A stretch of DNA of 64,000 nucleotides from Mesohalobacter halotolerans (GTDB taxonomy: Bacteria; Bacteroidota; Bacteroidia; Flavobacteriales; Flavobacteriaceae), in contig NZ_SWMU01000001.1 in assembly GCF_006120725.1 (NCBI RefSeq), positions 310,001 to 374,000 on the forward strand, read 5' to 3'. Position numbers and translations under genes: made by a program. The notes under the pieces were generated by a model. The model was not told where the DNA came from. It did not search any database and saw nothing but the letters and a program-made list of their open reading frames with translations. The number at the start of each line of letters is the position of its first letter. Position 1 is the stretch's first letter. Positions 52,256-63,728 of the stretch are shown here, in pieces.

Positions 52256-54433
52256 TTAAACCATCTCAAAATCCAAATTGCGTTTGATTAAATCGGCTTT
52301 TTTGACTTGAACGTCTATTTCATCACCAAGACGGTAGCTTTGCCCGGTTTTTTTACCAACAACTTCATAGGTTTCGGGGTCAAATATATAGTAATCACCG
52401 GGAATTTCTTTGAGACGAATCATACCTTCACACTTGTTCTCAATAAGTTCTACAAAAATTCCAAAGTCTGTAACGCCAGAAATTACGCCTGTAAAAATTT
52501 CACCTTCGTGTTTTTGCATAAACTTAACCTGCATAAATTTAATGGAATCGCGCTCAGCATTGGTCGATAAATTTTCCATAGCACTACAATGCTTACATTT
52601 GTCTTCATAAAGAGCTTCACTTTGACTGGATTTTCCGTCGAGGTAATGTTGTAATAAACGATGCACCATCACATCGGGATAGCGGCGAATAGGCGATGTA
52701 AAATGCGAATAATATGGAAAAGCTAAACCGTAATGCCCAATATTTTGAGTGGAATAATAGGCTTTACTCATGCTTCGAATAGCTAGAGTATCCACCAAAT
52801 TTTGCTCATTTTTACCTTCGACATCTTTTAAAAGTTTATTGATAGATTGGCTTAAGGATTTTGGAGTTTTATAGTTTAATTTATACCCAAACTGACTTAT
52901 TATTTTATCTAAGGCTTCCAATCGATCCTCGCTAGGTTCGTCGTGGCAACGATACACAAAAGTTTTGGTTGGCTTCTGTTTTCCTATAAATTCAGAAACT
53001 TTTTTGTTGGCTAAAAGCATAAACTCTTCAATGAGTTTGTTGGCTGCTTTTGAAGTTTTAAAGTAAACGCCTTCAGGTTCATTGTCTTCGGATAGGTTAA
53101 AATTAACTTCTACTTTGTCAAATGAAATTGCGCCTTTTTGAAACCTTTTATGTCTCAACTGTTTGGCTAAAGTGTTTAATGTTAAAATCGCTTCTTTTAA
53201 ATCGTCAGAAACGTGGTATGATTTTCCTGTTAGAGACACAGATTGATCAACTTTAGTATCTTTTGCATCTAAAATATATTGAGCTTCTTCGTAAGCTAAT
53301 CTTTGGTTAGAATGGGTCACGGTTCGTCCAAACCATTGTTGAATCACCTGACCGTTATCACCTAATTCAAAAACTGCAGAAAATGTGAGCTTGTCTTCAT
53401 TTGGTCTTAGGGAACACGCATCATTTGATAAAATTTCTGGTAACATGGGCACCACTCGGTCAACGAGATAAATAGATGTTGCGCGATTATAAGCTTCTTC
53501 ATCAAGAATAGTATCAGGCTGTAAATAATGTGATACATCCGCAATGTGAATACCGACTTCAAAATTTCCATTTTTTAATGGTCTAAAACTTAAAGCATCG
53601 TCAAAATCTTTAGCTGTTGCTGGATCGATTGTAAAGGTTAAAACCTCTCGCATATCTCGACGCGATTTTATATCTTTTTGCGTAATATCTGTTTTGAGTT
53701 GATTAGCAAAATTACTGACTTCCTCAGGAAAAGCTTCAGGTAAATCGTATTGTGCGAGAATGGCGTGCATTTCGGTGTTGTGGTCACCTGGTGTTCCTAA
53801 AACTTCCAGAACTTTACCATTTGGTGAATCTTTGTTGTCTTGCCATTTGGTCATTTCTACGACAACTAATTCGCCATTTTTTGCATTATTGTAGTCTGAT
53901 TTATCAATAAAAATATCAGTATACATTTTAGGGTCTTGAACAATCACAAAAGCAAAACGTTCGTTGATTTCTATTTTACCAACAAATTTACTTTTATAGC
54001 GTTCAATAATTTTAGTGACTTCACCTTCAGACTTTCTACCATGTGGTTTAAGGTTAACCACATAAACTTCAACTTTATCTTTGTGAAAAGCCGTGTTAAG
54101 TTTTTTGGCTGGCACGTAAATATCAGTCTCTAAATCATCAACTTTAATGTAAGCATCACCACGATTGGTCATATCGACTTCGCCTTCAAACAGATTTGAA
54201 GTATCATTAAACTGAAATTGCCCCGACTGGGTTTGCACTAATTTTTTTTTAGCCGTCAGTTCACCTAAAGTCCTTATAATTCTATTTCGCGTTTTGGTGT
54301 CGTTGGCATTAAGTTTTTCAGCAATTTGTGGAAATTTAAATCCTTTGGTAGGTTGTTTTCTAAAAATATTAAGGATTTGATGAGAGAATTTTTCCGAAGA
54401 TTTGTTGCTTTTGTGGTGTTTTTGTTTTCGCAT
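52256..54433 (-). CDS. rnr: Ribonuclease R
   Basis: A 3'->5' exoribonuclease that degrades structured RNA. I start at 54433 (MRKQKHHKSNKSSEK), the usual basic start of the family; a Met seven codons upstream is the alternative. Domains: an N-terminal winged helix (LNIFRKQPTKGFKFPQIAEKL), cold-shock OB folds, the RNB catalytic domain with FTIDPATAKDFDDALSF (the Mg-binding Asp residues), and a C-terminal S1 domain (GVISGVTDFGIFVELIENK). The Lys-rich tail of E. coli RNase R is absent. It is the last leftward gene next to the probable origin. Confidence 0.93.
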   Translation of the reverse strand: MRKQKHHKSNKSSEKFSHQILNIFRKQPTKGFKFPQIAEKLNANDTKTRNRIIRTLGELTAKKKLVQTQSGQFQFNDTSNLFEGEVDMTNRGDAYIKVDDLETDIYVPAKKLNTAFHKDKVEVYVVNLKPHGRKSEGEVTKIIERYKSKFVGKIEINERFAFVIVQDPKMYTDIFIDKSDYNNAKNGELVVVEMTKWQDNKDSPNGKVLEVLGTPGDHNTEMHAILAQYDLPEAFPEEVSNFANQLKTDITQKDIKSRRDMREVLTFTIDPATAKDFDDALSFRPLKNGNFEVGIHIADVSHYLQPDTILDEEAYNRATSIYLVDRVVPMLPEILSNDACSLRPNEDKLTFSAVFELGDNGQVIQQWFGRTVTHSNQRLAYEEAQYILDAKDTKVDQSVSLTGKSYHVSDDLKEAILTLNTLAKQLRHKRFQKGAISFDKVEVNFNLSEDNEPEGVYFKTSKAANKLIEEFMLLANKKVSEFIGKQKPTKTFVYRCHDEPSEDRLEALDKIISQFGYKLNYKTPKSLSQSINKLLKDVEGKNEQNLVDTLAIRSMSKAYYSTQNIGHYGLAFPYYSHFTSPIRRYPDVMVHRLLQHYLDGKSSQSEALYEDKCKHCSAMENLSTNAERDSIKFMQVKFMQKHEGEIFTGVISGVTDFGIFVELIENKCEGMIRLKEIPGDYYIFDPETYEVVGKKTGQSYRLGDEIDVQVKKADLIKRNLDFEMV

Positions 54434-54566
54434 ATAAATATTAAAATCGGCCAAATTTACGTTATATAAATTTAGGAAACTTAAATAGGTGTGTAATAAT
54501 TTGTTAAGAGCTAAACATGATTGGTCATTTTATTAACGATTTAATAAAACAGAAAACCCACTCATA

Positions 54567-54598
54567 TTTGTTAAATCCTTAAAAAAATGTTAATTTTG
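54567..54598 (+). promoter_or_regulatory. Promoter upstream of the 34-aa peptide gene
   Basis: TTTG at 54567-54570 and TAATTTTG at 54591-54598, 20 bp apart, match the Bacteroidota consensus. The ATG follows 17 bp later. It supports transcription of the small gene below. Confidence 0.7.
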
Positions 54599-54615
54599 TA
54601 AACTAAGTTATTATT

Positions 54616-54720
54616 ATGTCCAAATCCCTCAAAATAGTCTTGTTATTTATTTCTATCTTTATTGTTGGAGTGATAGCTACTTGGATATATCTGAGCTTTA
54701 TGATTGAGCAATCGCTTTAA
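54616..54720 (+). CDS. 34-aa single-helix membrane peptide
   Basis: MSKSLKIVLL is followed by a hydrophobic run and ends MIEQSL. The 34-aa product has one transmembrane helix with a basic N-terminus (inside). A consensus promoter lies just upstream, and the stop overlaps the start of the decayed DUF2007 gene (TAAATG), which implies that they were one operon. No known family. Confidence 0.6.
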   Translation: MSKSLKIVLLFISIFIVGVIATWIYLSFMIEQSL

Positions 54721-54976
54721 ATGCAATCTAACATTGGAAAATTACGTTGTTTTAGCTCGTTTTACTTACACTTATGAGTATGCGGTATTAAAGTTATTAC
54801 TGGACAAAGCTGAAATCCTATATTATTTTAAAAATGAACACTTCGCGAGTATTCTGCCTATCAATGCTATTGGAAATAATGGTATATTATTGATGGTCCA
54901 CTAAAAAGATCAAAAAGAAGCTAAACAAATTTTAGAAGATTTTTACACCTCAGATTCCCCATTGAAATTAATTTGA
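54721..54976 (+). pseudogene. DUF2007-family small protein, frameshifted and with an in-frame stop
   Basis: The reading frame from 54704 to 54904 contains ENYVVLARFTYTYEYAVLKL, a typical start of DUF2007 proteins (putative signal-transducing domain). The original ATG at 54721 (MQSN) is one base out of frame: an extra T in ATTGGAAAAT replaces the expected ATGGAAAAT. After LLMVH an in-frame TAA at 54902 interrupts a frame that continues KDQKEAKQILEDFYTSDSPL, ending TGA at 54974-54976. Two independent lesions make decay likely. Confidence 0.7.
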
Positions 54977-55601
54977 AGTTATCAACACTATATACCATAT
55001 TATGTATTTTATTTAAAAATTTTAAAAACTAAATGATGCTTATTATGGTGTGTTGATAATTGCTATAACTTTAAGGTGTTTAATTTGATTTTAAAGTTTT
55101 TAAAATATGATGCAACTTTATCAACAAGCTTGTCAATTTTAAAACATTGATTATTAGATTTCATTCTGCTTTATCAACATCTGTTCATAAAAAGCACCTT
55201 TAATAAATATTGATTTTTACCTTAGAATTTAGTGTTGATAAAACGACTTTAGATGCTGATAAATTTGTTTTTAAAAACCCATAAAAAATTTGTTGAGTTC
55301 AATTGGATTTCTATCTGTATTTTTTCTGATAAAAAACAAATCTATTTTTCATTTTCTTACTAAAACATATCAACAGTATTGTTAATTAAAACTATATTGA
55401 ATATCAATATGTTATATTAATGAGTTAACAATGCCTTAATCTTTGGTTAATCAAGGTATTTTTAAAATTATCTAGAAAAAGTAAAAATTATAAAGCCCTT
55501 GATAAACGGCATTAATTAATAAGTCTTTGTTAAAACCCATTAAAGTTTGTGAGTCTATTTCAGCTTTCTTTTATTTGGGCGCTAATAAAAAATAAAAATA
55601 T
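54977..55601. other. Probable chromosomal replication origin (oriC)
   Basis: This gene-free, very AT-rich region has five perfect TTATCAACA sequences, at 54979-54987 (+), 55051-55059 (-), 55118-55126 (+), 55171-55179 (+) and 55233-55241 (-). Near matches are at 55182-55190, 55254-55262 and 55367-55375, and a sixth perfect copy lies downstream at 56047-56055. TTATCAACA differs from the E. coli DnaA box TTATCCACA by one base. The part from 55261 to 55601 is the more AT-rich and could be the unwinding element. Gene directions diverge from this point, and two parS-like sites lie within 9 kb. I could not compute GC skew. Confidence 0.8.
55546..55577 (+). promoter_or_regulatory. Candidate promoter for the DUF4168 gene
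   Basis: TTTG at 55546-55549 and TTTATTTG at 55570-55577 (one mismatch to TAnnTTTG) are 20 bp apart, with the ATG 24 bp downstream. Confidence 0.5.
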
Positions 55602-56033
55602 ATGTTTAAGATTGCCACAAGTTTAGTGTTGTGTTTTATGACTACATCACTCATAGCACAAAGTCAAAATGTATCAGATCAGGAACTCGAAAAATTTGCC
55701 ACAGCCTTTCAACAGGTTAGAATGATTAACCAATCCTCTCAACAAAAAATGATGAAAGCTGTCACAGATGAAGATTTAACTGTAGAACGTTTTAACGTTA
55801 TCAATCAAGCTGAGCAAAATCCAAATAAAGAAGTTCAAGCTTCTGATGATGAATTAAAAAAATATAAAGCAGCTATGTCATCTGTAGAGGCTATACAGAA
55901 AGAGATTCAAGCTCAGTTACAAACAAAAATTAAAGATACCGGTTTAACTGTAGAGCGTTTTCAGCAAATTTCTGCTTTACTCCAAAAAGATAAATCTTTA
56001 CAGCAACGCTTAAGGGCTTTAATGCAAGGATAA
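55602..56033 (+). CDS. DUF4168-domain exported protein
   Basis: A 143-aa protein with a Sec signal (ATSLVLCFMTTSLIAQ) and two related helical repeats (VSDQELEKFATAF ... LTVERFNVI and ASDDELKKYKAAMSSVEA ... LTVERFQQI). The repeated LTVERF segments define the DUF4168 duplication. Function is unknown; it is expected in the periplasm. It is the first gene to the right of the probable origin. Confidence 0.78.
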   Translation: MFKIATSLVLCFMTTSLIAQSQNVSDQELEKFATAFQQVRMINQSSQQKMMKAVTDEDLTVERFNVINQAEQNPNKEVQASDDELKKYKAAMSSVEAIQKEIQAQLQTKIKDTGLTVERFQQISALLQKDKSLQQRLRALMQG

Positions 56034-56046
56034 TTTCAAAACATAT

Positions 56047-56055
56047 TTATCAACA
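56047..56055 (+). other. Outlying TTATCAACA (DnaA-box-like) site
   Basis: A perfect copy of the 9-mer found five times in the probable origin region, 52 bp before rpiB. It may belong to the origin or be a regulatory DnaA site. Confidence 0.4.
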
Positions 56056-56106
56056 ATCAATTAGAGATTTGTAGAGTTTATGTAATTTTGTTTAAAACAT
56101 AAAATT

Positions 56107-56538
56107 ATGCAAATCTCTATTGGTAATGATCACGCAGGAACGAGTTATAAACACGCTATAGTACAGCATCTGAAAGATAACGGTCATGATGTTAACAACC
56201 ACGGCACCGACAAAGAAGATTCTGTAGATTATCCCGATTTTATTCATCCAGTCGCTAAGGATGTAGAAAACCAATCTGCTCAATTTGGCATCATTGTATG
56301 TGGTAGCGGAAATGGCGCCAATATGACGGCCAATAAACACCAAGGCATCCGTTCTGCTTTATGCTGGAATAATGAAATAGTAGCACTTGCCAGGCAGCAT
56401 AATAATGCAAATATCTTGAGTATTCCAGCGCGATTTGTATCTCTTCAACAAGCCATCAAGTTTGTTGATATTTTTCTTGATACGCCATTTGACGGTGGTC
56501 GACATCAAAGACGGGTTGAAAAAATAGCTTGTTCATAA
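56107..56538 (+). CDS. rpiB: Ribose-5-phosphate isomerase B
   Basis: Interconverts ribose-5-phosphate and ribulose-5-phosphate in the pentose phosphate pathway. The 143-aa RpiB/LacAB fold has GNDHAGTSYKHA at the N-terminus and CGSGNGANMTANKHQGIRSA, with the Cys as general base. TAATTTTG at 56083-56090 is a candidate -7 element. The next gene starts 8 bp after the stop. Confidence 0.93.
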   Translation: MQISIGNDHAGTSYKHAIVQHLKDNGHDVNNHGTDKEDSVDYPDFIHPVAKDVENQSAQFGIIVCGSGNGANMTANKHQGIRSALCWNNEIVALARQHNNANILSIPARFVSLQQAIKFVDIFLDTPFDGGRHQRRVEKIACS

Positions 56539-61856: not shown

Positions 61857-63728
61857 ATGTTTAATAATAAATATGATGTTATTGTTGTTGGTGCAGGCCA
61901 TGCTGGAAGTGAGGCTGCAGCCGCAGCAGCTAATATGGGGTGCTCTACTTTGCTAGCCACCATGAATTTACAGAACATTGCTCAAATGTCATGCAATCCA
62001 GCCATGGGTGGCATTGCCAAAGGCCAAATTATACGTGAAATAGATGCTTTAGGCGGCTACTCCGGAATAGTTTCAGACGAAACGGCTATACAATTCAAAA
62101 TGCTTAACCGTTCTAAAGGTCCAGCGATGTGGAGTCCGAGAGTGCAATCTGACCGTATGATGTTTTCCCAACGTTGGCGTGAGCTCTTAGAACAAACACC
62201 AAATCTCGATTTTTACCAGGAAATGGTTTCCGGACTTATAGTAAACCATAACAAAATAGAAGGTGTAAAAACCTCATTAGGTCTTGAAATAAAAGCGAAA
62301 ACCGTTGTGCTTACCAATGGCACTTTTTTAAATGGTTTAATTCATATTGGCGATAAAAACTTTGGAGGTGGTAGAGCTGGTGAACGTGCCTCAACTGGTA
62401 TTACTGCAGAACTTGAGCAAATAGGCTTTCAAGCTGGTCGTATGAAAACAGGAACTCCACCACGCGTAGATGGCCGTTCTTTAGATTTCTCTAAAATGGT
62501 TGAACAGCCCGGAGACGATAATATCGGTCAATTTTCATTTTTGAAGGACATCAAAACCATAAAAAAACAGCGTTCGTGCTATATGACTTATACTTCACCA
62601 GAAGTTCATGACCTCTTAAGAGAAGGCTTTGACCGTTCACCCATGTTCAATGGTCGAATTCGAAGTATAGGACCAAGATATTGCCCCAGTATTGAGGATA
62701 AAATTGATCGCTTTGCAGACAAAGACAGACATCAAATGTTTATAGAGCCTGAAGGCTGGACAACTATTGAATACTATGTAAATGGGTTTTCTACTTCTCT
62801 GCCAGAAGATGTTCAATACAATGCCCTAAAATCAGTCAAAGGTTTTGAAAACGTCAAACTTTTTAGACCCGGCTACGCTATTGAATACGATTATTTTCCA
62901 CCAACCCAATTAAAGCATACACTAGAAACAAAGCTCGTATCTGGTTTATTTTTTGCAGGTCAGATTAACGGCACAACAGGTTATGAAGAAGCCGGTTCAC
63001 AAGGTATGATGGCTGGCATAAATGCTGCGCTTAAAGTTAAATCCCAAGATCCTTTTATTCTCAGACGAGACGAAGCTTATATCGGTGTGTTAATCGACGA
63101 TTTAATCACAAAAGGCACTGAAGAACCTTACAGGATGTTTACCTCACGCGCAGAATATAGAACCTTACTTCGACAAGACAACGCGGACATCAGATTAACA
63201 GAGCGATCTTATCGTCTTGGTTTAGCTTCAGAAGAACGCATGAAGCAAGTCGATAAGAAGATAGCAAAAACCAAAAAATTCGTTCAATTTTTCAAAGATA
63301 CTAGTGTTACAACTTCAGAAATTAATCCAATTTTAGAATCAAAAGGCTCAAAACCTGTAGATCAACAGGGTAAATTATTTAAGATATTTGCACGACCTAA
63401 TATTTCACTTTCAGATTTAAAGCAAATTGATAAAGTTGATGCTTTCATTAAAGAGAACAACTTAGATTCTGAAATACAAGAGCAAACTGAAATACAAGTT
63501 AAATATGCCGGCTATATTGAAAAAGAAAAGCAAAACGCTGATAAACTACACCGGTTGGAAAACATTAAAATTCCTCAAAATTTTGATTATTCGCAATTGA
63601 AATCTATGTCTTATGAGGCTAGAGAAAAACTCTCCCAAATACAACCACAAAGTATCTCTCAAGCTTCACGCGTAAGTGGTGTAAATCCAAGTGACATCTC
63701 GGTGTTATTAGTGCATTTAGGACGATAG
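61857..63728 (+). CDS. mnmG: tRNA uridine-5-carboxymethylaminomethyl modification enzyme MnmG (GidA)
   Basis: A 623-aa FAD protein that, with MnmE, modifies wobble uridine 34. It has the FAD fold VVGAGHAGSEAAAAAANMG, CNPAMGGIAKGQI, and GLFFAGQINGTTGYEEAGSQG, and a helical C-terminal domain ending INPSDISVLLVHLGR. In many bacteria this gene lies near the origin. MnmE is not in this window. Neighbours: ybeY 4 bp upstream; a methyltransferase gene 22 bp downstream. Confidence 0.96.
   Translation: MFNNKYDVIVVGAGHAGSEAAAAAANMGCSTLLATMNLQNIAQMSCNPAMGGIAKGQIIREIDALGGYSGIVSDETAIQFKMLNRSKGPAMWSPRVQSDRMMFSQRWRELLEQTPNLDFYQEMVSGLIVNHNKIEGVKTSLGLEIKAKTVVLTNGTFLNGLIHIGDKNFGGGRAGERASTGITAELEQIGFQAGRMKTGTPPRVDGRSLDFSKMVEQPGDDNIGQFSFLKDIKTIKKQRSCYMTYTSPEVHDLLREGFDRSPMFNGRIRSIGPRYCPSIEDKIDRFADKDRHQMFIEPEGWTTIEYYVNGFSTSLPEDVQYNALKSVKGFENVKLFRPGYAIEYDYFPPTQLKHTLETKLVSGLFFAGQINGTTGYEEAGSQGMMAGINAALKVKSQDPFILRRDEAYIGVLIDDLITKGTEEPYRMFTSRAEYRTLLRQDNADIRLTERSYRLGLASEERMKQVDKKIAKTKKFVQFFKDTSVTTSEINPILESKGSKPVDQQGKLFKIFARPNISLSDLKQIDKVDAFIKENNLDSEIQEQTEIQVKYAGYIEKEKQNADKLHRLENIKIPQNFDYSQLKSMSYEAREKLSQIQPQSISQASRVSGVNPSDISVLLVHLGR

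Follow-up and report, generated by a model that had tools for sequence, protein, structure and literature searches.

The DNA at positions 54979-55601 of the window (the whole 64-kb stretch analysed, C1:310001-374000 of a draft genome of 11 contigs and 2,651,256 bp) is very probably the chromosomal replication origin, oriC, and the support for this, which is good, comes mainly from relatives. Computation revealed a cluster of DnaA boxes that stands apart from the rest of the genome, is conserved, and in several relatives lies at or near the GC-skew flip. The first-pass annotation had called the site a probable oriC; that proposal is sustained by the outstanding cluster, its conserved position and arrangement, the skew flip in a relative, and a pooled skew change that is seen whatever the direction of the genes. 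The region has features of an origin: boxes clustered above chance, an intergenic setting with an adjoining AT-rich stretch, and boxes kept in place and orientation. For this strain we infer that DnaA binds the boxes, where the DNA unwinds and that the site is used as an origin. DnaA, encoded 190 kb away, would bind six or more TTATNAACA-type boxes of either orientation that have rnr on one side and the DUF4168 gene with rpiB on the other, and the bound protein would assemble into an oligomer. The oligomer would open the adjoining AT-rich stretch, probably 55242-55601, which would then admit the helicase, and forks would depart both ways.

The cluster itself (Table 1) was found as first described: five perfect copies of TTATCAACA in 263 bp (54979-55241) in both orientations, with three near matches, TTATGAACA (55182, minus strand), TTATCAGCA (55254, minus) and ATATCAACA (55367, plus). 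A sixth perfect copy, also reported earlier, is present at 56047 on the plus strand, 0.8 kb off and on the far side of the DUF4168 gene. The original estimate was one or two chance copies of TTATCAACA per window; shuffled sequence gives 1.37 (sd 1.24, largest 5; n = 100) against the nine actually present. Genome-wide there are 112 copies, compared with 48 of the reversed control, an approximately two-fold over-representation, and the recommended scan for other clusters turned up no rival group near five in 263 bp among the matches listed (100 of the 112 places). The inverted pair TTATCMACA..TGTKGATAA, its two boxes separated by 45-75 bp, a pattern that reads alike on both strands so that every pair is printed twice, occurs as two pairs in the genome, both inside the cluster. 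Base 6 is A in all six window boxes, so that they depart from the E. coli-type TTWTNCACA, which has C at position 6. The E. coli box TTATCCACA was rejected as the box of this genome: it has 32 copies compared with 52 in the control, and none in the cluster.

Table 1. Features of the putative origin region and its surroundings (window coordinates unless marked C1; weak boxes and spacings as described in the text)
Feature	Position	Strand	Remarks
rnr (RNase R), divergent left neighbour	52256..54454	-	Pfam RNB, CSD2, OB_RNB, S1
DnaA box 1	54979..54987	+	TTATCAACA; same letters in G031 and G036
DnaA box 2	55051..55059	-	TTATCAACA; inverted relative to box 1, start-to-start 72 bp; G031 has TTATTAACA at 71 bp
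DnaA box 3	55118..55126	+	TTATCAACA; same letters in G031
DnaA box 4	55171..55179	+	TTATCAACA; 53 bp past box 3; letters and spacing same in G031
DnaA box 5	55182..55190	-	TTATGAACA; 11 bp past box 4; G031 TTATAAACA, G036 TTATCAACA
DnaA box 6	55233..55241	-	TTATCAACA; G031 TTATAAACA, G036 TTATTAACA
AT-rich stretch, candidate unwinding element	55242..55601	.	22.5% GC; weak boxes 55254-, 55367+; 251/360 bases identical to G031
DUF4168 protein, right neighbour	55602..56033	+	Pfam PF13767
rpiB (ribose-5-phosphate isomerase B)	56107..56538	+	Pfam PF02502
mnmG/gidA, matched domain part	61875..63047 (C1:371875-373047)	+	PF01134; starts 6.6 kb from cluster

The region was said to be free of genes, and 54979-55601 indeed holds no ORF of at least 60 aa. 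To its left, the single ORF of at least 60 aa in 54455-54978 is a 66-aa ORF starting with TTG, which had no Pfam match at E 0.01; translated fragments in 54704-54975 resemble, by eye, a decayed small gene. To its right, the DUF4168 gene, rpiB, a cation-efflux gene and a GNAT gene follow in this order, all on the plus strand. The stretch 55261-55601, described as very AT-rich, has 21.7% GC compared with 35.4% for the window, and lower values occur in less than 0.1% of stretches of its size. Its least stable 100 bp by duplex stability (start 55319) ranks only sixth lowest in the window. The AT-rich stretch is a plausible unwinding element. A DnaA-trio was sought and discarded, since there are just A-rich runs at 55473-55587 and no convincing trio next to a box. 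As had been pointed out, dnaA is not adjacent; it lies at C1:556081, and this would be an oriC unlinked to dnaA.

Where does the GC skew place the origin? In the window's own genome the skew is weak and was read from a draft contig. The cumulative curve is still falling at the cluster (365 kb) and goes on down until 415 kb, stays flat to 610 kb, where it is lowest, and then rises. There is no clean minimum at the expected place, about 55 kb into the window: the floor lies 50-245 kb further on. Splitting the skew by gene strand gave, by eye, no replication component above scatter, and this approach was dropped. In relatives, the orthologous region lies at the skew minimum in Allomuricauda, in Robiginitalea and in the pooled loci, and in the interval next to it in G037; in G031 it does not. 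The Allomuricauda chromosome (CP051244, a metagenome-assembled genome in a single record, sampled as 20 stretches of 20 kb) has negative skew over 1.08-1.10 Mb and positive skew from 1.115 to about 2.4 Mb. Its rnr-rpiB intergenic region is at 1,109,007-1,109,784, with dnaA 1.78 Mb apart at 2.888 Mb, and a two-step skew fit puts the origin in 1.090-1.125 Mb, with the region inside (R2 0.87, rank 1 of 20 intervals). Over the 55 kb around the region the cumulative curve reaches its lowest value at 1,121,690, 12 kb beyond it, on a flat floor. Contig 1 of Robiginitalea, of weak skew, goes from -0.024 at 0.50 Mb through +0.002 at 0.53 Mb to +0.067 at 0.575 Mb, with the region at 0.564 Mb.

Pooling the 59 loci that have the rnr-rpiB gene pair and span 20 kb or more gave a third-position skew, left and right of the region, of -0.046 and +0.064 for plus genes and of -0.036 and +0.161 for minus genes. 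In 50 of the 59 loci the rnr side has the higher skew, and the same holds for third-position skew in 44 of 59 for plus genes and 29 of 37 for minus genes. The sign change is seen in genes of both strands and is therefore independent of gene direction. Within the genus of the window the picture is more mixed. The best interval of G037 (2.024-2.050 Mb, R2 0.57) adjoins its cluster at 2.013 Mb, and the interval containing the cluster has R2 0.30 (rank 7 of 20). An origin forced at the cluster gives R2 0.37 (rank 6 of 20; best elsewhere 0.43) in G030, which is compatible with an origin there. In G031, the closest complete relative, the same constraint accounts for 1% of the variance in the sampled skew (rank 15 of 20), and the best fit of 2.01-2.16 Mb is 0.23-0.38 Mb from the cluster at 2.394 Mb. 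A rearrangement near the origin would explain the shifted skew of this clade. An origin at dnaA was also tried and rejected, with no valid skew fit in Allomuricauda or G030 and a poor fit in G037 (R2 0.07, rank 15 of 20) and G031 (R2 0.03, rank 12 of 20).

Could the cluster instead be a site for DnaA titration or reactivation, which we would liken to datA or DARS, or the relic of a former origin, in a genome that now starts replication at another place? The displaced skew floor of the window's own genome and the lack of a flip at the G031 cluster would fit such a site. However, neither TTATCAACA, among the matches listed, nor the inverted-pair pattern reveals a second cluster, in Allomuricauda and Robiginitalea the skew flips at the orthologous region and in G037 right next to it, and the boxes are kept in relatives. 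We regard a titration site or relic as improbable.

Conservation of the cluster was followed in a genus set of 27 genomes, 26 of which have rpiB. The genus appears to include Psychroflexus, because the box array of G014 is that of P. aurantiacus (L041) in both letters and spacing. In G031 the six boxes are spaced, start to start, by 71, 67, 53, 11 and 52 bp, compared with 72, 67, 53, 11 and 51 bp in the window; 51 of 54 bases are kept inside the boxes and 149 of 208 between them, and all three changes are at position 5, which the known consensus leaves free. The more distant G036 keeps 47 of 54 bases inside boxes and 107 of 207 between; two of its six boxes carry a change, at position 1 or 3. 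Of the 27 genomes, 11 contain the inverted-pair pattern, and the ten other than the window's own have it once each. Six of these ten loci are next to rpiB, that of G022 is between rnr and ytxH, and those of G020, G026 and G032 are flanked by ytxH and by a gene for a class II tRNA synthetase, which we take to be glyS. No cluster was identified in 4 of the 27 genomes (G024, G028, G029 and G034). The flanking genes change and the cluster stays, which is how an origin would behave, and the differing flanks (rnr, rpiB, ytxH and the class II tRNA synthetase gene; L223-L226) around a constant cluster suggest rearrangements ending at the origin.

This behaviour also bears on whether the boxes serve transcription only, as part of a promoter through which DnaA would control rnr, the DUF4168 gene or rpiB. 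The boxes do lie between divergent genes, and TACCTTTGT, which resembles the Bacteroidetes -7 promoter element, is enriched in the rnr-rpiB intergenic regions of the family (23 observed compared with 0.7 expected, at 22 loci). Yet the cluster is kept beside other genes, ytxH and rnr in one genome and ytxH and the tRNA synthetase gene in three, and the skew of relatives flips at the region, so that a role as promoter alone is less likely still than a titration site or relic.

The origin reading extends beyond the genus. An RNase R scan was taken to the best 80 of 589 relatives, mostly Flavobacteriaceae or its genera, with some of broader or other assignment (L087, L115), and a divergent rnr-rpiB pair within 3 kb is found in 70 of these 80. 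The 71 regions made up by these 70 relatives and the window, which contributes seven boxes, contain 212 copies of TTATN[A/C]ACA where 20 rounds of dinucleotide shuffling give 21.4 +/- 4.6, a ten-fold excess; 70 of the 71 have at least one copy and 38 at least three. Upstream of rnr (as far as rpiB, or over 1.4-1.5 kb in loci that lack it there), TTATCAACA or TTATCCACA occurs 68 times in 78.1 kb, compared with 75 times in the remaining 1,534.6 kb of the 80 loci, or 0.87 and 0.049 perfect boxes per kb; the shuffles are the better control, since AT content makes part of this contrast. A motif-free ranking of 9-mers in 68 regions, with three Psychroflexus regions excluded, put TTATTAACA first (71 observed, 4.6 expected) and TTATCAACA fourth (40 observed, six of them from the window, 2.4 expected). 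Several spacings recur, plus-minus at 71 bp (six times), minus-plus at 134 bp (six) and minus-minus at 34 bp (nine), counts that random placement reaches in 0 of 500 rounds; they are not independent and are inflated, because the loci share descent. The plus-plus spacing of 52 bp was set aside, as random placement of the same boxes reaches its count in 35 of 500 rounds. One strain, L037 (92% identity in RNase R), has no perfect box within 1,455 bp upstream of rnr. Positions L037:116-1183 upstream of its rnr are corA (PF01544, E 7e-57), and the contig ends shortly afterwards. A chance cluster in AT-rich DNA, or the sites of another regulator, might be suspected from the 21-23% GC of the region and the genome-wide excess of TTATCAACA, but is scarcely credible against a Poisson estimate of about 7e-8 for such a cluster anywhere at the genome's own TTATCAACA rate, the ten-fold excess over dinucleotide shuffles and box substitutions in G031 that are confined to position 5.

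Which DnaA would read a box with A at position 6? The DnaA of this genome has PF00308 and PF08299 matches and the RDHATVLH motif of the box-binding domain, with alanine at the place equivalent to E. coli T435. In E. coli, the helix of residues 434-451 is described as reading the 3' part TnCACA, and T435M as defective in box binding (PMC5742627); a C. difficile study predicted the consensus TTWTNCACA for DnaA having these residues (PMC7561715). Within the genus set, the identity of residue 435 (alanine or serine) corresponds to that of box base 6 (A or C) in all 23 genomes that could be evaluated, a count that leaves out the four with no cluster identified. All 11 genomes with serine (of 27) have three to six copies of TTATCCACA and no TTATCAACA in the examined locus; G037 has two overlapping copies of TTATAAACA besides. 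Alanine is found in 16 genomes, and the 12 of these with an identified cluster all have at least one TTATCAACA; TTATCCACA is absent from 11 of the 12 and has one copy in G022, and TTATTCACA is present in nine of the 12 genomes. These box counts cover whole loci of 3.4-14 kb, and the loci of G020, G022, G026 and G032 were located by the inverted-pair pattern, which itself allows A or C. Across the family regions base 6 is A in 163 boxes (16.6 expected) and C in 32 (4.8 expected), and DnaA has alanine at 435 in nine of nine further flavobacterial genera checked. From the counts by genome and by family, alanine is associated with a preference for A that tolerates C, and serine with C.

In a tree of DnaA, a branch with support 100/100 separates the serine group from the others, which makes this a single joint change of residue and boxes. 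The branch is long (0.28), and there are other differences in the same region of DnaA. That initiator and origin changed together within one genus, Ala-435 DnaA reading TTATNAACA with A at position 6 and C tolerated and the serine clade having rebuilt its array as TTATCCACA, is a proposal drawn from these sequences for which we judge the prospects evenly balanced. Variation at residue 435 is not new, since Epsilon- and Deltaproteobacteria already vary there, with mostly serine and less often threonine or alanine (PMC5043019).

The oriC of E. coli has several 9-bp DnaA boxes, in both orientations, next to an AT-rich stretch. The region described here is similar in having multiple boxes of both orientations that adjoin an AT-rich stretch, and differs in the A at position 6 of its boxes, where the E. 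coli consensus TTWTNCACA has C (PMC7561715, PMC5043019), and in the alanine of its DnaA in place of T435. An oriC remote from dnaA is an already known kind, as it has been reported in Bacteroidetes for Prevotella intermedia and, based on DoriC, as a general statement (PMC4755523). The P. intermedia origin is likewise a box cluster at a skew transition remote from dnaA, but it belongs to a different lineage of the phylum, and the comparison covers the clustering, the distance to dnaA and the skew (PMC4755523). Closer to the window, Ori-Finder predicts oriC at mnmG in two Flavobacteriaceae, Mariniflexile litorale (PMC11278836) and Algorimicrobium (PMC12843772). The Mariniflexile origin did not fit dnaA either, and mnmG is near the window's cluster (Table 1); those accounts name mnmG alone, unlike the present one, which gives boxes between rnr and rpiB with their form and spacing. 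The text of PMC11278836 has oriC at mnmG and ter at leuB, and the legend of its Figure 3 has them reversed. The default box of Ori-Finder 2022 is TTATCCACA, and the indicator genes it uses depend on the lineage (PMC10225481). Blattabacterium, also of this group, is described as lacking both dnaA and boxes (PMC2768785). In titles and the openings of abstracts, largely outside subscription journals and outside DoriC, we found neither such a box form in Flavobacteria nor a joint change of this type, and no match for a Psychroflexus oriC. The 9-mer TTATCAACA turns up there in work on Cyanothece and phytoplasma, and TTATTAACA with DnaA in work on Mycoplasma.

An origin would thereby be placed for a lineage whose assemblies dnaA cannot orient, and boxes between rnr and rpiB would be a family-wide marker of it, in a cluster that a search by the E. 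coli box alone would miss. The co-variation of residue 435 and base 6 is a fresher lead than the remote oriC, though it is one evolutionary change. If the reading is true, one DnaA residue sets the sixth base of the DnaA box, and if the relation is causal, this genus offers a natural experiment on the joint change of an essential initiator and its sites.
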